Below are positions 4,313-53,707 of a DNA stretch of 53,707 nucleotides, piece after piece; positions within the stretch are counted from its first letter, which is position 1, and every line of letters starts with the position of its first letter. Source of the DNA: Methanolacinia paynteri (GTDB taxonomy: Archaea; Halobacteriota; Methanomicrobia; Methanomicrobiales; Methanomicrobiaceae); NCBI RefSeq assembly GCF_000784355.1, contig NZ_KN360943.1, positions 93,654-147,360 on the forward strand, written 5' to 3'. Position numbers and translations under genes: made by a program. The notes below the pieces were generated by a model. That model saw only the letters and a list, made by a program, of their open reading frames with translations, searched no databases and was not told where the DNA came from.

Positions 4313-5178
4313 TAACAATGAGTAAAAACTCGATTAAAATTTTTCGAGATTGGATCTATATCTTCTAAATTATAATTTAGAACGAAAATCTCATTTCCTT
4401 TAGTTACTGTCGACTTTTTAACATTTGTCATTCCATAATTCAAACTCCAAGGTATAATTTCTGCAAAATCAAATAAATCCCGCATTTCAGGTGTATCGTC
4501 GCATGTTATTAACCATTTATGGGAACATTTCCGGACTTCATCAGCAAATTTCCTATGATCAAATACTTTATGCAAATCTCCATTTTTACCATAAAGACTG
4601 GATTCTTTTGCAGAGAGATACGGAGGATCGAGAAATAAGAAAACATCTTTCCCCGTTTCATGTAGTAGATGAGAATAATCATAATTTGAAATAATTACAT
4701 CAGACAATAATTCCGAAAGAGGAGTTATTTTATTGATCATTGATTCTGTGAACCTTTTGTCATATGATTGTTGAGAAAAACCTCCTGAATCAATTAGCCC
4801 AGAAAATGTAATTCTATTCAAAATAAAAAAACGAATGGCCTTCTCAAAATTATCTAAATTTTTGTGACTTTTTTTATAATATTCATATAATTCTTTCCCG
4901 GTTTTAAATTCATTTTTCATAGAGAACACTTTTTCTCGAAATCGTTCTCCATCCTGTTGGACGCAACGCCAAAAAAGATATAGATCTGGATTTATATCAT
5001 TTATTTTAAAAGAAACATCTTCTTCAATATTTTGCTTTACTTTGACGAAAACCGACCCTCCTCCTACAAAGGGTTCTCGGTACTCATTTATATCTCGTGG
5101 AATAAGGCAAGATATTTTTTTTAAAGCTTTACTTTTTCCTCCAGGATAACGCAGTACAGCGGTGGTTTCTTGTGTCAT
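4312..5178 (-). CDS. Dam-type (D12 class) adenine-N6 DNA methyltransferase
   Basis: A 288-residue protein from the ATG at 5178, which follows an AAGGA ribosome site; an in-frame ATG at 5205 is possible. It has the D12-class order: an SAM-binding LRYPGGKSKAL motif at the N-terminus, EPFVGGGSVF (motif I) around residue 40, DINPDLY, a helical target-recognition stretch, and the catalytic FLDPPY (motif IV) around residue 188. Known chemistry: transfer of methyl from S-adenosylmethionine to adenine N6, often at GATC-like sites. No restriction endonuclease is adjacent. It is divergent from the NurA-HerA operon and equally AT-rich, so it may mark self DNA for that operon or be an orphan methylase. 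The recognition site cannot be read from sequence. Confidence 0.85.
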   Translation of the reverse strand: MTQETTAVLRYPGGKSKALKKISCLIPRDINEYREPFVGGGSVFVKVKQNIEEDVSFKINDINPDLYLFWRCVQQDGERFREKVFSMKNEFKTGKELYEYYKKSHKNLDNFEKAIRFFILNRITFSGLIDSGGFSQQSYDKRFTESMINKITPLSELLSDVIISNYDYSHLLHETGKDVFLFLDPPYLSAKESSLYGKNGDLHKVFDHRKFADEVRKCSHKWLITCDDTPEMRDLFDFAEIIPWSLNYGMTNVKKSTVTKGNEIFVLNYNLEDIDPISKNFNRVFTHC

Positions 5179-45085: not shown

Positions 45086-45592
45086 ATGGTCGAGAACACG
45101 ATGGAAGACTCAAAAAAGCCTGAATTGAAGGGAATAAATATCGGAATTGGCGAACTGAAGGTAGGAGGTTTTGTAATGACTTCCATAGGCCTTGGATCGT
45201 GTATAGCTGTCGTTCTGCACGATAAAAAAAAGGCTGTAGGCGGCGTTGCTCATGTCATGCTTCCCAACAGCAATGACAAAAAAGACAGGCCGGGGAAATA
45301 TGCAGATACAGCTGTTCCCGAATTACTAGGAGAGCTGATTGCCGAAGGAAGCAACAAGAGGGACATCATTGCAAAAATTGCAGGCGGATCAAGTATGTTC
45401 AGGCAGTTCAAGGGGAACCTTGATATTGGGGGAAGAAATATCGAGGCTGTCAAGGAAGCACTGAACCTGAACAGAATTCCTCTGGAAGGTGAAGATACCG
45501 GAGGAAATGTCGGAAGATCAATTATGTACGATCCGGGCCAGAATGGTGCTATTGTAATCAGAAGGGCGGACGGTACATGTATAAATATCTGA
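45086..45592 (+). CDS. cheD: Receptor glutamine deamidase CheD
   Basis: 168 residues. The Cys of GLGSCIAV and the His of GGVAHVMLP form the catalytic core. It deamidates receptor glutamines and regulates CheC. ATG 45086 is used; 45101 is an alternative. The last 16 bases overlap the start of the propeller gene. The C-terminus (NVGRSIMYDPGQNGAIVIRR) is conserved in the family. Confidence 0.9.
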   Translation: MVENTMEDSKKPELKGINIGIGELKVGGFVMTSIGLGSCIAVVLHDKKKAVGGVAHVMLPNSNDKKDRPGKYADTAVPELLGELIAEGSNKRDIIAKIAGGSSMFRQFKGNLDIGGRNIEAVKEALNLNRIPLEGEDTGGNVGRSIMYDPGQNGAIVIRRADGTCINI

Positions 45593-46665
45593 TTTTACTT
45601 TTCCTTTCAGCTTTATTGGGATTTAATCCTGTATCGGCAGAGCTTGTCCAGTTCTGGCCTGATTCAAACTCCATAAGTACTGCGGATGTCAGGGATATAT
45701 GTGACGGAGCAAACGGAAGGATTATTTTCGCCACATCTAACGGGATCTCGATATTTGATAATGAAGAATGGAAGATTCTTCACGCTCTTCCCACGGACAA
45801 GAGAGGGTATCTTGAAGGCATACCTCTGAACGACTACGTTCTCCAGGCAGAATATGATTACCTGAACAACCTGTGGATTGGATACAGCAACGGTATCCAG
45901 ATATATAACGGCTACTCCAAACCGGTAACAATAAGGCAGGCAGATGATATTCTGATAGATCCTTCAATTAACAAGCTCAAACGCCAGGGAAGGATAATGT
46001 GGATTGCAACGGGGGATTCAGGTGTTTATTACTATTTTAACGGCAAATTTGGGTGGGTAAAACCCGGAGAAGAAACCGGTCTTCTCGGGAACCATATCAA
46101 TGACATTGAGGTGGATTACGCAAACGATATCCTGTATGTGGCATCCGCTTCAAATGGTCAGTTCTCGTACGACGGCGGTATAGAAGGACTCGACAACATA
46201 ACATTCAAACAGATAATCGATCCTCTCATTGCCAAAGATATGACAGAGATCGCATCATATCCATACGGAGGTGTTGTATTCTTCAACAGTACCGATGCAG
46301 TTTACTATAATGAATTGTCAGGGGCAGAACATATCTTCAACGTTAAGGACCTCTCGGGCGGTACAAATAAAATATATGATCTGGCAGTTACAAATGACGG
46401 CAAATATGTCATAGGAACCGACAACGGTATCTTCTGTTGGTATAAAGGCGAGGTCTGCAGGCACCTGACAAGATTTGACGGGCTTGCAGATTATAAAGTA
46501 GATAAGATTTATATCGATGATTCCGGCAGATGGTGGTTTTCAACAAAAGAGACCGTAGGTTACTACTATGAGCCAGAGTTTACAGCTGTCTCTTCCATTG
46601 AGATCAATCCCGGTTCTTTCGGGCAGGATTCTACGATTATCAATAATGTTCTTTCGGGTATCTGA
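45577..46665 (+). CDS. Secreted two-component-regulator-type beta-propeller protein
   Basis: 362 residues. A clear signal peptide (MYKYLILLFLSALLGFNPVSA) is followed by about six propeller repeats with the cadence D..G..(I/L)(W/Y)(I/F)A(T/S)..GI..(Y/F)(N/D)G (for example GRIIFATSNGISIFDNEEW and NLWIGYSNGIQIYNGY). This resembles the Reg_prop repeats of hybrid sensor kinases, but no transmembrane or kinase part follows. It starts inside cheD, so it is co-translated with the chemotaxis operon. A role as an extracellular ligand-sensing accessory or surface component of motility is inferred. Confidence 0.7.
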   Translation: MYKYLILLFLSALLGFNPVSAELVQFWPDSNSISTADVRDICDGANGRIIFATSNGISIFDNEEWKILHALPTDKRGYLEGIPLNDYVLQAEYDYLNNLWIGYSNGIQIYNGYSKPVTIRQADDILIDPSINKLKRQGRIMWIATGDSGVYYYFNGKFGWVKPGEETGLLGNHINDIEVDYANDILYVASASNGQFSYDGGIEGLDNITFKQIIDPLIAKDMTEIASYPYGGVVFFNSTDAVYYNELSGAEHIFNVKDLSGGTNKIYDLAVTNDGKYVIGTDNGIFCWYKGEVCRHLTRFDGLADYKVDKIYIDDSGRWWFSTKETVGYYYEPEFTAVSSIEINPGSFGQDSTIINNVLSGI

Positions 46666-46734: not shown

Positions 46735-47002
46735 TGGCAACCCCACGCCGCGAGCCTCTCCAAGGCTCACGGATCGGCCCCGACCTCGGGGCCTCTTCAT
46801 GGTGATAACCACTCAGGGGATAGACGAGTATCCCCTGAGCGGAGAGATGCGGTAAATTCATGTATGGGACGAAATATGTAACAGCTTAGGGGACCCCCGC
46901 CGGTCCCCTGAGCGTGCCGTGAGATAGCTATCTTAAGGCAAGGCCCTTGGGTAGGGGCCGTCCGGCGGACCTGGGGCCGCCGGTGCCGGGGTCGCCCGAG
47001 TA
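46735..47002 (+). ncRNA. Structured RNA candidate, copy A (multi-hairpin, GC-rich)
   Basis: No gene is seen in 46666-47141. A chain of perfect or near-perfect hairpins is present: 46752-46768, 46776-46793 (GGCCCCG/CGGGGCC), 46812-46839 (11-base CTCAGGGGATA/TATCCCCTGAG), 46885-46912, a small dyad near 46923-46934, 46942-46959 and 46962-46983 (CCGGCGG/CCGCCGG). A second copy in opposite orientation lies at 53551-53707. The G-U pairs on this strand would be A-C mismatches on the other, so the plus strand is favoured. A T-run at about 47084 could end the transcript. Not recognised as RNase P, SRP or tmRNA. Confidence 0.65.
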
Positions 47003-47141
47003 AGGTATAGTAAGGTATGTAAGCAAGACGGCAGTGCCATGTATGTAATATCTGAACGTACGTGAAGATGAGAGAATGCAGAGCGTTTTTGGTAATTGTT
47101 TGCTGTCCTGAAATTATTTTAAAAAAAATTCAGCAGACTGT

Positions 47142-48338
47142 TTATTCCTGAATCTTGATGACCTGCATCGCGTATTTGTCAATGGATTCAAAAAATGCAT
47201 TCTTAGAAGTCTTATGTCTCAGGATATCATCATCAGAGAATATATCGTTCATGAGATAATCGAGTGCAACCAGGTAGAAATGAAGGGATTTAAACCTCTT
47301 CTTTAACTGCTTGAACTGGAGTTTTGCCTCACGCTGCTCATCACGCATAACGAATATTGCAAGATCGAATAACTGAACCAGGTAATTCGGCATTCCTTTT
47401 TCCAGCGCCTTGTCACGGAATTCATTGTAAGTACTCTTGCTGTTTGAAAGCAATGACAATTTGATCCCGTAATAGAACGGTTCAAGACTGTTCGGATTCT
47501 GCTGTATCATCTGTTTTACGATACCTGCGGCACCGACACCGTCTCTTTTTTCCAGTTTCAGGTAGAAATTCTCCCTCAGGAAGTCCTGGTCATTATAGAA
47601 CTTATCAACGGCATATGCAAGGAATTGTAATCTTTTTTCTTCATTGCCATCGTTTTTGGCCTTTTCAATCCCTATTTTTACGTACCACCGCTCATTGGGG
47701 AACCATTCAAGCGCCTTCTTTGTCATCAGCCAGAATGCACGATCCATTGATTCCGTATCTTTGATATCCAGCTGTTTGAAGCGGTTCACTGAGGGTTTTA
47801 CCTTGGCCATCTCAAGGAGGGTCTCCCTTGCCTGAAGTTCAAGACGACTCGGCCGGTCATCTATTTCCCCGTGAAGAGCCTTCTTCTCATTTCCGGAGAG
47901 AGCGTAATAGCAGTAAGCAATATACATGCCTATCCTGGCATCGTACTTCCAGTAATCACTAAAATAATCAATCGCTTCCCTGTACCTGCCGATATCCATC
48001 ATCTTGACGCCCGAGAGAATCCTGAGAGTGGATCTCCCGGACTTTTTCTTCTTGCACCTCAGGGCATTGGAAATTATTTTTTCGATGAATTCAACAGATT
48101 TAGCCTCGGGACTCGCCTTCATAATGCGGAAAGAGATGTCGTCGATGAAATTGTCGTATGAGTTATTGTCAATATCAGGAAATGCGTTATCGAGTGCCGA
48201 CATCACATGACCATAAAAAACAGGGATATTTGATGATATCTTATCCGGGTTGCTGTCGATGTATAAGAAGAGATCATTCTTCAGGACATCAACTTTTTCA
48301 TACCTTATGGCATCCGTTAATTTCTCCCCACGAGGCAT
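47142..48338 (-). CDS. Unknown helical-repeat (TPR-like) protein
   Basis: 398 residues, soluble and mainly helical, beginning MPRGEKLTDAIRYEKVDVLK. Pairs of amphipathic helices with TPR-like spacing are visible (IDYFSDYWKYDARIGMYIAYCYYALSG split over a turn; AKNDGNEEKRLQFLAYAVDKFYND; NSLEPFYYGIKLSLLSNS). No catalytic residue pattern was recognised. It lies downstream of abce1 on the same strand with about 50 bases between, so it could be co-transcribed or have its own start at 48338. A partner-binding role is likely by fold; the pathway is unknown. Confidence 0.6.
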   Translation of the reverse strand: MPRGEKLTDAIRYEKVDVLKNDLFLYIDSNPDKISSNIPVFYGHVMSALDNAFPDIDNNSYDNFIDDISFRIMKASPEAKSVEFIEKIISNALRCKKKKSGRSTLRILSGVKMMDIGRYREAIDYFSDYWKYDARIGMYIAYCYYALSGNEKKALHGEIDDRPSRLELQARETLLEMAKVKPSVNRFKQLDIKDTESMDRAFWLMTKKALEWFPNERWYVKIGIEKAKNDGNEEKRLQFLAYAVDKFYNDQDFLRENFYLKLEKRDGVGAAGIVKQMIQQNPNSLEPFYYGIKLSLLSNSKSTYNEFRDKALEKGMPNYLVQLFDLAIFVMRDEQREAKLQFKQLKKRFKSLHFYLVALDYLMNDIFSDDDILRHKTSKNAFFESIDKYAMQVIKIQE

Positions 48339-48387: not shown

Positions 48388-50163
48388 TTATGTTTTTGAT
48401 ATTTCAGCATAATAGTAATCCCCGGCCGACCTCTGCTCCCTGTCAAGATAACTGCCGGGTTTGTTGATTCTTGGTCTGCCGGTTTTGTCTCTCCTGAAGG
48501 TTACTCCCAGTTCTTTCAGGAAATGATTCATTCCCTCTCTCATATCCATAGGGCCAAGCGCCTTTCCTGAAATTCCGGGTTCACCGTCAAATACGAAGAG
48601 CCGTTCACTGATCATATCGATGACATAAATATCGTGATCGATCACAAGAACACCCGAACCGGACGATTCTGCATGGCGTCTTATTACCCTTGAGAGTATC
48701 ATACGCTGTTCGACGTCGAGATGAGCGCTCGGCTCGTCAAGGATGTAAAGATCGGCCTCTTTCGAAAGACACAATGCGATTGCAACTCTTTGAAGCTCTC
48801 CTCCTGACAGCTGGGAGACGGACGACTGGAGAATAGGCTCAAGCGAAAGGGGCTCGAGTATTTCATGCTTGTAGTAATTGCTGTCGAATTTGTTCGTTGC
48901 CTGCCTGAGCATGAATTCAACGGAATCATTGGAATCTGTTTTGATATACTGTGGTTTGTATGAGATTTTTACCGTAGATTCCATCTTCCCTTCATCGGGC
49001 TCCTCCAGCCCTGCAAGGATCTTTGCAAAAGTACTCTTACCAATTCCGTTCGGCCCGACAAGACCGAGGACCTCTCCGCATCTTATCTCACCTCCATGGA
49101 TGGTGAGCTCGAACTTCCCATCATAATTCTTTTTGAGCGCCGGAAAAGTCATAAGAATCTCTCTTTTCACTTCACGGTTGTGCGAATAAGTCTCGAAGTT
49201 TACCGAATAGTCACGGAACCTGACATTTTCCTCCTGCAGGAATCCCTCGAGGTACTGGTTGATGCCGACGCGGACACCCTTGGGACGCGTAAGTATTCCG
49301 AATACCGAAGGCTTACCGTAGGCGATATGAACATTTTCTGCGAGCATATCGAGGATTGCAAGGTCATGCTCTACGATTAGAACAGGCTTTTCCACAGAGA
49401 GCTCCTGGATCAGTTCTGCAGCAGTCATCCTCTGGTATATATCAAGGTAAGGAGTGATCTCATCGAGGAAATAGAAGTCTGCATTGCGGGAAAGGCATGC
49501 TGCAAGTGCAATACGCTGGATCTCTCCGCCCGAAAGTTTACCTATATCGCGATCGAGGATAGACTCAAGCTTCAGCTTTTGTACGTAATGCCCAAGTTTG
49601 CCTCTTTCGTCGGTTGATTTCAGCAGATCGATTACTTTTCCCTTGAATACCTTTGGTATGAAGTCGATATACTGCGGCTTTATCGAGGCTTTCAGGGAGC
49701 CTGATGAGATCATCTTGATATAATCGAAAAGTTCCGTTCCTGCATAATGCTTAAGAACTGCATCCCAGGACGGATCTGTTTCAAAATCACCGAGATTGGG
49801 AATAATCTGCCCAGATAAAATACTGACCGCTGTACTTTTTCCGATACCGTTCGGCCCAAGGATACCGGTAACTTTTCCTTCGAGAGGAATTGCCATTCCA
49901 TAGAGTGCAAAGCCGTTCTGCCCGTAGCGGTGTGTGGGAAATTCCAGTTCTTCGGGCAGGGTTACTATATCAAGGGCTTCAAACGGGCACTTCTTTACAC
50001 AAATTCCACAGCCTACGCACAACTCTTCAGATATTACAACTTTCCCGTCTTCGCCGATTACTACAGTCTCGTCTCCTGTACGGACCCTCGGGCAGTAGAT
50101 GATGCACTCTTTTCCACACTTCTTCGAATGACATCGATCCTTATGTACAACAGCAATTCGCAT
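48388..50163 (-). CDS. abce1: ABCE1 (RNase L inhibitor) ribosome-recycling ATPase
   Basis: About 591 residues from the ATG at 50163; an ATG at 50172 is less likely. The N-terminal two-cluster iron-sulfur domain has CHSKKCGKECIIYCP and CVGCGICVKKCP. The first ABC domain has GPNGIGKST and signature LSGGEIQRIAL, and the second has GPNGIGKST and LSGGELQRVAI, joined by the hinge region. ABCE1 splits archaeal ribosomes after termination or after Pelota-mediated rescue. It follows the EMC6-like gene by 27 bases and is divergent from NEMF and Pelota, its functional partners. Confidence 0.95.
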   Translation of the reverse strand: MRIAVVHKDRCHSKKCGKECIIYCPRVRTGDETVVIGEDGKVVISEELCVGCGICVKKCPFEALDIVTLPEELEFPTHRYGQNGFALYGMAIPLEGKVTGILGPNGIGKSTAVSILSGQIIPNLGDFETDPSWDAVLKHYAGTELFDYIKMISSGSLKASIKPQYIDFIPKVFKGKVIDLLKSTDERGKLGHYVQKLKLESILDRDIGKLSGGEIQRIALAACLSRNADFYFLDEITPYLDIYQRMTAAELIQELSVEKPVLIVEHDLAILDMLAENVHIAYGKPSVFGILTRPKGVRVGINQYLEGFLQEENVRFRDYSVNFETYSHNREVKREILMTFPALKKNYDGKFELTIHGGEIRCGEVLGLVGPNGIGKSTFAKILAGLEEPDEGKMESTVKISYKPQYIKTDSNDSVEFMLRQATNKFDSNYYKHEILEPLSLEPILQSSVSQLSGGELQRVAIALCLSKEADLYILDEPSAHLDVEQRMILSRVIRRHAESSGSGVLVIDHDIYVIDMISERLFVFDGEPGISGKALGPMDMREGMNHFLKELGVTFRRDKTGRPRINKPGSYLDREQRSAGDYYYAEISKT

Positions 50164-50190
50164 TGATACCACCAGTAAAAATATTCAAAA

Positions 50191-50547
50191 TTATTGTAAT
50201 GAAAGAAGAATCGTCCATGATATGAACCAGAAGGCAAAAGTCATGAATGCCTGGTAGAACCAGTCCTTTCCTCCCAGTTTGGTATAATCGATCTTAAACA
50301 CCATGAAGATGTGTTTCTGGAATACTATTCCGGCAAGCAGAAACAGCCATCCGAGAATCGATAGACTTTCTCCGGGGGGAACCGACGGATTTCCAATTAT
50401 GACATATGAGAGTATTCCTGTTAACATACCCATAAAGCAGGCTATACCTGTCCTGAGCATGCGCTCCCTGTGTCCGTCGACCTTATCTGTGGGGCTTTTC
50501 TTTATTTCCTCTTCGTTATTGATATCCAGTTGTTTCTCCTCGACCAT
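50191..50547 (-). CDS. EMC6-like membrane protein
   Basis: About 118 residues from the ATG at 50547; longer in-frame sequence upstream overlaps the NEMF gene and was rejected. A charged N-terminal 35 residues precede three membrane helices (about 38-55, 65-82 and 98-115). The end motif KDWFYQAFMTFAFWFISWTI is the signature of archaeal EMC6-like proteins. EMC6 belongs to the ER membrane insertase complex in eukaryotes; the archaeal role is presumed membrane-protein insertion or folding. Operon with abce1. Confidence 0.72.
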   Translation of the reverse strand: MVEEKQLDINNEEEIKKSPTDKVDGHRERMLRTGIACFMGMLTGILSYVIIGNPSVPPGESLSILGWLFLLAGIVFQKHIFMVFKIDYTKLGGKDWFYQAFMTFAFWFISWTILLSLQ

Positions 50548-50590
50548 CGAGACACCAGTGATTATTTTTTGGTTTTCAGACAATATGTAG

Positions 50591-50602
50591 TTTGGTATAT
50601 AA
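50591..50602 (+). promoter_or_regulatory. TATA-type promoter of the NEMF-pelota operon
   Basis: TTTGGTATATAA lies in the 54-base divergent gap between the EMC6-like and NEMF genes. A start site about 25 bases downstream would fall near 50620, which would make the internal ATG at 50620 (MSSIDIR) a leaderless start. Confidence 0.4.
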
Positions 50603-52512
50603 TGGCAACCCAGCAGGGAATGAGCAGCATTGACATCAGGACAATGCTCTATGAAATAAGAGAAAGGCTGCCCCTTTGGATCGGAAAGATCTACCAGTAC
50701 AACACCGATTCCTTCGGTTTCAGACTGAACGGGGAAGATAAATCCAAATATAATTTCCTGGTGGAATGCGGCAGAAGGGCACATCTTACAGATAATCTTC
50801 CGGATGCACCCCCGAATCCTTCGGGATACTCTATGTTCCTCCGTAAATATATCAGCGGGGGCAGGGTTCTGGATATAAAGCAGTATGGACTGCAGAGGAT
50901 TTTTATTATTAAAATAGGTAAAACGGAGAAAGAATACAACCTGATATTCGAACTATTTAATGAAGGAAACGCCGTTTTGTGTGACGAAAACTTTATCGTC
51001 ATAAATCCGCTGAAAAGACTGCACTTCAGAGACCGCGAGATCGTTTCCGGGACTGAGTATATCTTCCCGGAATCAGGTACGGACGAGATTACGATTGACA
51101 GCATAAGGACTGTACTTGAAAATTCAGAAAGGGATCTCGTAAGAACTCTTGCATCCGATTTTTTACTGGGGGGAAGATATGCAGAGGAGGTCTGTCGGAT
51201 TGCAGGTTATGACAAGACAATGAACCCTGCTGAGGCCGAACCGCAGACGATCCTGAATGCATTAGAGGGACTCCTGTCAAGGGGCACGAATGCCGTCATC
51301 ACGAAATCGGGATGCTGGCCATACCCGCTTCCGGGTGAAGAGCCGGTATCATCTTTTTCCAGCTTCAATGATGCTCTTTCGGCTTATTTCCCTCTCCCGC
51401 AACCGGCTGCGAAGGATGCTAAGAAAGAGAAACTCCCGAAATCCGAAATTATCCGCAGAAGACAGCAGGAAGCGATAGTAAACTTCGAAAAGAAGATCGC
51501 CGAACTACAGGAGAAAGTGGATGCGATATATGAGAACTACCAAGATATTTCAGGGATCATAGACACCCTCAGGGATGCAAGTTCAAAATTATCATGGCAG
51601 GAGATCGAGGAGACACTCAAAAACAGTTCTCTTCCTGCGGCAAAATCCATCGTAAGGATCTATCCTTCAGAATCCGCAGTGGATGTCATGGCCGGCGGAA
51701 AAAAGGTAAAGATATTCATAAACGAAAATCCCGAATCGAATGCGAACAGGTACTACGGGGAGATCAAGAAATACAAAAAGAAGAAGGCGGGTGCCCTCGT
51801 AGCGATGGAGAAGTTCATGCCGAAGGAGAAGCCGGCAAAAAAGAGGCAGGATTACAAACCACAGAAGAAGAAATGGTATCATAAATACCGCTGGTTCACC
51901 ACAAGCGACGGTGTCCTCGTAATAGGAGGACAGGATGCAGGCAGTAACGAAGATATCGGAAAAAAATACCTAGAAGGGAAGGATTATTTCGTTCATGCCG
52001 ACGTTCACGGCGGAAGCGTTGTTGTAGTTAAAGGAGAAACGGAGAATTGGGATGAGGTTGCGGAATTCGCAGCATCCTACTCGAATGCCTGGAAAGCCGG
52101 CCATTTCAACTGCGATGTCTATGCCGCAAAACCTGAACAGGTCAGCAAGACCGCAGAATCGGGGGAGTTCGTAAAGAGGGGTGCATTTATAATCCGGGGT
52201 GAGAGAAGATACTTCAGGAATGTGGGCCTGAAGATTGCAATAGGGCTTCAGCTTGAACCCGAACTTGCGGTAATCGGCGGGCCGGAGAGCGCTGTAAAAA
52301 GGACTGCCGCATACTATGCCGTGCTCCTTCCGGGAAAATTCGAGCCTAACGATACGGCCAAAAAAGTCCTGAGGGAACTGAAAAAGATGATCCCTGAAGA
52401 AGACATTAAGGATTTGAAGACTGTTCTCAATACCGAAAGCATAGCAGCCTTCGTCCCCCCGGGGGGATCGGATATCGTCGAAGTTGTGGATATGACAAAG
52501 GAGAACTCATAA
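50602..52512 (+). CDS. rqcH: NEMF/Rqc2/RqcH homologue (NFACT protein)
   Basis: About 636 residues from the ATG at 50602, or 630 from ATG 50620 (MSSIDIRTMLYEIRE), which the promoter position may favour. NFACT-N is at about 5-200, a helix-hairpin-helix-like middle at 180-260, long coiled coils at about 280-350, and NFACT-R (DUF814) at about 430-560 with KYRWFTTSDGVLVIGGQDAGSNE and DYFVHADVHGG. Known role: binds split 60S/50S subunits with stalled nascent chains and, in bacteria and archaea, can add Ala tails. Its stop overlaps the pelota ATG (TAATG). Confidence 0.9.
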   Translation: MATQQGMSSIDIRTMLYEIRERLPLWIGKIYQYNTDSFGFRLNGEDKSKYNFLVECGRRAHLTDNLPDAPPNPSGYSMFLRKYISGGRVLDIKQYGLQRIFIIKIGKTEKEYNLIFELFNEGNAVLCDENFIVINPLKRLHFRDREIVSGTEYIFPESGTDEITIDSIRTVLENSERDLVRTLASDFLLGGRYAEEVCRIAGYDKTMNPAEAEPQTILNALEGLLSRGTNAVITKSGCWPYPLPGEEPVSSFSSFNDALSAYFPLPQPAAKDAKKEKLPKSEIIRRRQQEAIVNFEKKIAELQEKVDAIYENYQDISGIIDTLRDASSKLSWQEIEETLKNSSLPAAKSIVRIYPSESAVDVMAGGKKVKIFINENPESNANRYYGEIKKYKKKKAGALVAMEKFMPKEKPAKKRQDYKPQKKKWYHKYRWFTTSDGVLVIGGQDAGSNEDIGKKYLEGKDYFVHADVHGGSVVVVKGETENWDEVAEFAASYSNAWKAGHFNCDVYAAKPEQVSKTAESGEFVKRGAFIIRGERRYFRNVGLKIAIGLQLEPELAVIGGPESAVKRTAAYYAVLLPGKFEPNDTAKKVLRELKKMIPEEDIKDLKTVLNTESIAAFVPPGGSDIVEVVDMTKENS

Positions 52513-53537
52513 TGAAGGCCGAGTTCGGCGACATGAAAAATTCATTCGGAGAGATCAGGCTGTTTCCCGAGAATACGGACGACCTCTGGCATATCGGCCA
52601 TATCATCAGGGAGAGTGATCTTGTCTTTGCCACGACCTTCAGGAGCCTTGACTCCGCAACAGACAAGGCAAGACCGGAAAAGATGGAGAAAAAACCTGTC
52701 AGGCTCGGGATAAGAGTCGAGAAGGTTGAGTTTCATCACAATGCAAACAGGTTGAGGATCAGCGGGGTCATCGAGCACGGCCCTGATACAGGATTCCATC
52801 ATACTATAAATCTTGAAGCGGGATTCGAGATCTCGGTTATAAAGAACTGGAGAAAGATCGATATGGAAAGGATCGACCGGGCCGTTAAGGCATCCGTGAC
52901 CGGTGTAGTTCATATCGTGGCGATCGAAGAAGGCGAGGCAGAGATCTACAGGATACGGCAGTTCGGCCCGGAAAGATTTACAACGATCTCCGGGGGCTCG
53001 GGAAAACGGGAAGGACTGGATATGCGAACAGGTTTCTTCGACGAGATCTTATCAAACCTTTCGAATGTCACGGGACCGGTTGTCGTTGCCGGGCCGGGAT
53101 TCATAAAAGAAGATTTCATGAAATATCTCGAAGGAAAAGACAGGGATCTTGTTTCAAGATGTGTGGTCGCCGACACTAGGAGGATCGGCAGGGGTGCCGT
53201 ACAGGAGGTCATCGGCCAGGGAGTCCTGAACCGGATCTCGGAGGATATCCAGCTTGCCCGTGAAGTTTCATGCATGGACGAACTTATCACCAGGATCTCA
53301 TCCAGTGGAAATGCTGCGTACGGTATTAATGAGGTTGAAAATGCAGTAGCGATGGGAGCCGCAGACGAGGTACTTGTAACGGACGAGATGATAAGGGATT
53401 TACGGGTCTCCGAACTGCTCGACAAAGCAGAGAATATGCGTGCAAAGATAACAGTACTCTCGTCAGAATTCGAACCTGGAAAACAGCTCGATGCTCTCGG
53501 CGGGATCGCAGCTCTGCTAAGGTATTCCATCGGCTGA
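52512..53537 (+). CDS. pelA: Pelota (Dom34/aPelota) ribosome-rescue factor
   Basis: 341 residues in three domains: an N-terminal Sm-like domain (about 1-130, with LWHIGHIIRESDLVFATTFRS and LGIRVEKVEFH), a central eRF1-like domain (about 131-255; VVVAGPGFIKEDF) and a C-terminal L7Ae-like domain (about 256-341). It lacks the GGQ motif, as expected. Pelota enters stalled ribosomes with aEF1A and then works with ABCE1. It is directly coupled to the NEMF homologue, so stalled-ribosome recognition and nascent-chain handling are encoded together. Confidence 0.93.
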   Translation: MKAEFGDMKNSFGEIRLFPENTDDLWHIGHIIRESDLVFATTFRSLDSATDKARPEKMEKKPVRLGIRVEKVEFHHNANRLRISGVIEHGPDTGFHHTINLEAGFEISVIKNWRKIDMERIDRAVKASVTGVVHIVAIEEGEAEIYRIRQFGPERFTTISGGSGKREGLDMRTGFFDEILSNLSNVTGPVVVAGPGFIKEDFMKYLEGKDRDLVSRCVVADTRRIGRGAVQEVIGQGVLNRISEDIQLAREVSCMDELITRISSSGNAAYGINEVENAVAMGAADEVLVTDEMIRDLRVSELLDKAENMRAKITVLSSEFEPGKQLDALGGIAALLRYSIG

Positions 53538-53550
53538 ATATATTGTTTTT

Positions 53551-53707
53551 CTCCGGCGACCCCGGCACCGGCGGCCAAAAACCGCCGGACGGCCCCTGCC
53601 TAGGGGCCTTGCGCTAAGATAATCTTCCAACGGCACGCCCAGGGGACCGGCAAGGGTCCCCGGGCTGTTTTTTGACATATTCCACTCCGTGTACACACCA
53701 TGAATCA
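53551..53707 (-). ncRNA. Structured RNA candidate, copy B (partial, runs off the window)
   Basis: This is the reverse complement of the 3' part of copy A (about 46850-46992). It shares GGCCGCCGGTGCCGGGGTCG and GTCCGGCGG, and the GGGGACC/GGTCCCC, GGCCCC/GGGGCC and CCGGCGG/CCGCCGG hairpins. Where copy A has a U-G pair in the 46942-46959 stem, copy B has C-G. The lower part of the GGGGACC stem also changes on both sides. Its 5' half lies beyond the right edge. It starts 14 bases after the pelota stop. Confidence 0.6.

Follow-up and report, generated by a model that had tools for sequence, protein, structure and literature searches.

The hairpin-rich segment at positions 46736–46996 of the window (the whole analysed stretch of 53,707 nucleotides from Methanolacinia paynteri), which a first-pass annotation had read as a structured RNA tied to a ribosome-rescue cluster, is no lone RNA gene but a degraded copy of a small mobile DNA element. 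Comparison with the related copies indicates, with a probability of about 85%, that it belongs to a non-autonomous ISL3-family transposable element (MITE), of which it is a truncated copy. The element is of a known mobile kind; its interior is unusual and is maintained.

Structure and surroundings of the window copy

The hairpin series and the gene-free character of the segment were correctly recognised by the first-pass annotation: seven local hairpins are present (Table 1), no gene lies at 46736–46996, and the + strand RNA has a fold energy of -151.4 kcal/mol, which corresponds to z = -6.9 against dinucleotide shuffles (z = -6.3 for the - strand). The two halves of this core are inverted homologues with co-linear matching blocks, and, past the core, the sequence remains homologous to the element's longer arm up to approximately position 47121. 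Since the terminal CGAAGAGCC inverted repeat is missing from this right arm, we consider the window copy to be truncated; it is without both terminal repeats, is assigned to the family by its core and truncated right arm, and is presumably immobile. No known RNA class was recovered: Rfam gave no match at the gathering threshold, and up to E 10 only chance-level matches, outside the core.

An inverted second copy near the window end, also noticed earlier, is present as a right half. Its remainder falls in an assembly gap, and the match stops at 53669 owing to a run of N that starts immediately beyond the window (locus L043, ~4360–4500); the repeat itself may be the cause of this scaffold gap.

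The window copy is flanked by a convergent gene pair and adjoins cheA-cheC-cheD. ABCE1-like, NEMF/RqcH-like and pelota genes adjoin each other at 48388–53537, a ribosome-rescue neighbourhood that looks incidental to the copy; in place of an RNA tied to that cluster we found a mobile repeat at the DNA level, which exists in dozens of copies, has ends like those of ISL3 elements and is associated with 8-bp duplications of the target.

Table 1. Features of the two copies in the window and of the genes flanking the first.
Feature	Position	Strand	Part	Basis
Core left half	46736..46857	+		profile match E = 6e-34; 59-copy alignment; pairs counted
GGCAACCCC end		+	outer end of core left half, 46736..46857	
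hp1L hairpin	46748-46772		core left half	
hp2L hairpin	46776-46793		core left half	
GATA motif	46804-46807		core left half	
hp3L hairpin, loop GACGAG	46809-46842		core left half	
Variable spacer separating the inverted halves	46858..46879	+		alignment of copies
Core right half, inverted homologue of left	46880..46996	+		profile match E = 8e-32; half-to-half homology; pairs counted
hp3R hairpin	46884-46913		core right half	
hpE hairpin	46921-46934		core right half	
hp2R hairpin	46942-46959		core right half	
hp1R hairpin	46962-46983		core right half	
GGGGTCGCC end	46988-46996		core right half	
Remnant of MITE long right arm, terminal CGAAGAGCC inverted repeat absent	46997..47121	+		comparison with complete copies, e.g. 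L003, L019
Right half of second copy, opposite orientation	53556..53669	-		profile match E = 1.4e-29
Left convergent neighbour, beta-propeller protein (Reg_prop)	45577..46665	+		
Right convergent neighbour, 398-aa protein, no Pfam match	47142..48338	-		

Dispersed copies, transposon ends and an ISL3 partner

We identified 49 matches in the M. paynteri genome (G000), about half of which are near full length, and 53 in the sister species Methanolacinia petrolearia (G001); the matches occupy ~40 or more places in G000 and about as many in G001; identity between copies is ~75–90%. Their forms vary, with half copies and tandem arrays also present. Such arrays, with a period of ~317–353 bp, occupy corresponding places in both species (L114, G001:1678000-1697990, and L115, G000:C39) and, by inspection, lie near a CheR-like gene. 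A covariance model of the left half, run over 150 genomes, matched strongly in M. paynteri and M. petrolearia alone; G002, G009, G012 and G014 contain related variants, and the weaker matches elsewhere include chance ones. The exact core pattern was absent from the named genomes and viral contigs searched, a set in which near records may be left out, and we found no literature on these MITEs.

In many copies the arms around the core terminate in GGCTCTTCG...CGAAGAGCC terminal inverted repeats. The ends of complete copies are sharp and asymmetric (reading inward, GGCTCTTCGCTAATCTGTGTGGGTA at the left end and GGCTCTTCGCTGTTTCATGTGGGTAA at the right), two-ended copies measure 351–539 bp, and the element, present in dozens of copies, contains no transposase gene; the reversed control of the end pattern gave zero matches in G000 and G001. 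In the majority of copies, a terminal repeat cannot be recognised at one end or at both. The MITE ends are not common to all copies, contrary to a first assumption, as several classes of left flank occur, some of them being linkers of the tandem arrays.

Target duplications accompany these ends. The flanking 8-mers are alike at 7 or 8 of 8 bases in half of the two-ended copies (8/16), compared with a mean of 0.87 copies and a maximum of 6 in shuffled controls (0/20,000 shuffles reached 8). At the L007 site the element seems to be missing from G001, where one target copy persists beside a diverged left flank, and we regard this as a probable empty site; at the L015 site the element is missing too, in diverged DNA.

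A type of partner transposase was found in genus g6 of the same family, in which ISL3 insertion sequences 1351 and 1292 bp long (G007/G012) are bordered by exact 8-bp duplications (CAAAAAGT, TTATTTAT, GTTTTTTA and AAGAAATA) and encode a protein with three ISL3 Pfam domains (DDE_Tnp_ISL3, HTH_Tnp_ISL3 and Zn_ribbon_ISL3). The two different ends of these insertion sequences match those of complete copies of the repeat end by end: the first 11 bases and a TGTGGGT block are common to the left ends, and 24 of the first 26 bases are alike at the right ends. Because both ends match and the protein carries the three domains, we assign the repeat to the ISL3-type MITEs. The ISL3 transposase (PF01610) was not found in G000, G001 or G009; an autonomous partner in the host genome is not strictly defining for a MITE, since partners can be lost. 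In G007, ISL3-type ends also enclose an AT-rich interior in a sequence of 332 bp (L167, positions 524–856), which is probably another MITE of the g6 insertion sequence.

The repeat resembles known ISL3 insertion sequences and MITEs in its GGCTCTTCG... ends, its 8-bp AT-rich target duplication, its short, multicopy form without a transposase gene and its matching autonomous element with DDE_Tnp_ISL3 in g6. It differs from them in having a long bipartite multi-hairpin module as interior, in a host genome without the autonomous partner and in the many copies that lack ends. Paired inverted hairpins in intergenic DNA and tandem arrays also recall bacterial REP/BIME repeats, but the Methanolacinia element is larger, its ends match those of ISL3 insertion sequences, and Y1 transposition is not known to produce target duplications or to involve long terminal inverted repeats such as those seen here; we regard it as very improbable that a REP-associated Y1 (RAYT) transposase spread the repeat.

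A complete copy of the ISL3-type MITE, ~350–540 bp long, has asymmetric terminal inverted repeats around a ~260-bp core, whose two arms, inverted homologues of each other, each comprise an outer hairpin, a GGCCCC hairpin, GATA and an inner hairpin, the loop of which is conserved. For its history we propose the following scheme. An ISL3 transposase acting in trans would have moved the element, with duplication of 8 bp of AT-rich target, and copies inserted between convergent genes would have survived best. Recombination between the inverted arms may occasionally flip the core in place, and selection on the single-stranded form would keep the hairpins.

Core orientation and conservation of the hairpins

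We compared 15 orthologous sites of M. paynteri and M. petrolearia (L016 and L020 being counted as one tandem site), at which core identity is 81–96%. The core has the same orientation at 11 sites and the opposite one at four, L001 (the window copy), L012, L013 and L027, so that the structured RNA annotated earlier at the window locus is not supported by the sister species. In the L027/L063 pair the flank aligns right to the core edge, which suggests that the core was inverted in place, whereas the flanks of the window pair differ close to the core, where independent insertion is a possible alternative to inversion. Together with the ISL3-matching ends and the target duplications, the four sites with opposite core argue for an ISL3-type MITE and against an RNA gene on a fixed strand.

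Nevertheless, the hairpins themselves are maintained over evolution. The stem changes cited in the first-pass annotation are present, and, in alignments of 59 left and 75 right halves, two-sided compensatory change affects 11 pairs of the left half (4.3 expected from shuffles) and nine of the right half (3.9 expected), also exceeding slid controls in both halves; the local hairpins were used for these pair counts, as the RNAalifold fold of the right half is partly different. Departures from Watson-Crick pairing are biased in opposite directions, GT 18/AC 65 in the left half and GT 148/AC 26 in the right one, and a contrast of that size is missing at unpaired positions. The bias holds when one sequence per 90% cluster is retained (left 10/30, right 69/10), although shared ancestry could be part of its cause and weakens the statistics. 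Given this opposite bias, the strand running from the centre outward is the one with protected pairing in each half. Of the first-pass reading, the strong conserved hairpins and their compensatory changes are borne out; selection may act on a single-stranded shape, but not on that of one full-length + strand RNA, as the wobble pairs of the left half favour the - strand.

These observations bear on whether the copies could be a gene family for structured non-coding RNAs, with transcription from a single strand and with multiple copies by chance. The strong fold, the covariation and the order-wide conservation of loop and GATA would agree with such a family, as would a TATA-like stretch ~25 nt upstream of the core in some left flanks. 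This stretch is, however, missing in many copies, the window copy included, the wobble pairs favour the - strand in the left half and the + strand in the right half, four of the 15 orthologous sites are in opposite orientation, and the repeat has target duplications and ends matching ISL3 insertion sequences; we hold this explanation to be improbable. We rejected the idea of one + strand RNA driven by a left-arm promoter, the TATA-like stretch not being general and the wobble bias of the left half being reversed.

The gene context of the MITE copies offers a further indication. Between convergent genes we found 26 of 60 copies, compared with nine of 51 background pairs (p = 0.004; crude gene calls, with orthologous copies counted in both species). 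Combined with the wobble asymmetry, this excess suggests that a transcript arriving from either flank may make use of the half lying farther away. The most likely function, which we put forward tentatively, is that each arm would act in outward-running transcripts, for example in forming the 3' ends, or in terminating the transcripts, of both convergent genes. Such a role would amount to domestication of the core, as an element that works in both directions in 3'-end formation, termination or mRNA stabilisation; this concerns the function of the same mobile element and is not a rival identity. The convergent-gene bias and the mirror-image wobble bias, with the outward strand favoured in each half, are consistent with this, and so is the placement of published G-quadruplex repeats (rPQS) bearing the same module, of which about half, according to their description, are tail-to-tail and 11% head-to-head (PMC8044849). 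Convergent intergenic insertion may, however, simply be the least harmful, the sequence diverges at orthologous sites, and at least one site is apparently empty in the sister species; domestication is possible, on balance not probable.

A GATA-plus-hairpin module common to G-quadruplex repeats

We counted the pattern GATA-N(4-18)-GGGATRGRCRAGYATCCC 46 times in G000, 49 times in G001 and 10 times in G002; 14 more genomes have one to three occurrences each, and altogether three Methanomicrobiales families are covered. The reversed control of the pattern gave zero matches in 199 genomes. Many of the G000 and G001 matches belong to a second subfamily, in which an rPQS lies ~30 nt upstream of GATA, an arrangement seen in most of the G000, G001, G002 and G009 copies checked. 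This subfamily is dispersed in G000 (C1, C5, C29, C31 and others; loci L153, L176–L187). ISL3-type ends were not found near its Methanolacinia copies and, since relatives of the core exist without such ends nearby, the core may be a separate module that the MITE took up.

In another genus, G023 contains a complete 351-bp element (L151, 1407–1758) with a G-rich arm and a GATA hairpin, whose ends are GGCTCTTCGTCGTTTTCTGTGGGTA and GGCTCTTCGCTAATTGGTGTGGGTG and whose flanks, AAAAGGTA and AAAAGATA, are alike at 7 of 8 bases. Judging from these sequences, a module of the GATA-plus-hairpin type lies between ISL3-type ends in at least two genera, and the window element has a module in common with the G-quadruplex repeats. 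In the consulted part of the published work, the rPQS of Methanomicrobiaceae are intergenic, multicopy and tail-to-tail biased, features that the element shares together with the GATA-plus-hairpin module; the module, the inverted arms and the transposon ends are absent from that part of the description (PMC8044849). The four G-runs of published spacing with a 3' C-rich tract that characterise rPQS are present in the second subfamily, beside the common module, but not in the window core, which has GC-rich hairpins instead. We consider it conceivable, though on balance not probable, that the module of the three families is a bidirectional element (for 3'-end formation, termination or mRNA stability) travelling in ISL3-type MITEs, with rPQS as one of its forms.

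What looked like an orphan RNA becomes, in this way, a mobile element for which the type of partner transposase has been identified, and the G-quadruplex repeats of these methanogens gain a possible vehicle. As the transposon hairpins are conserved with a mirror-image strand bias, a role at transcript ends is directly testable.
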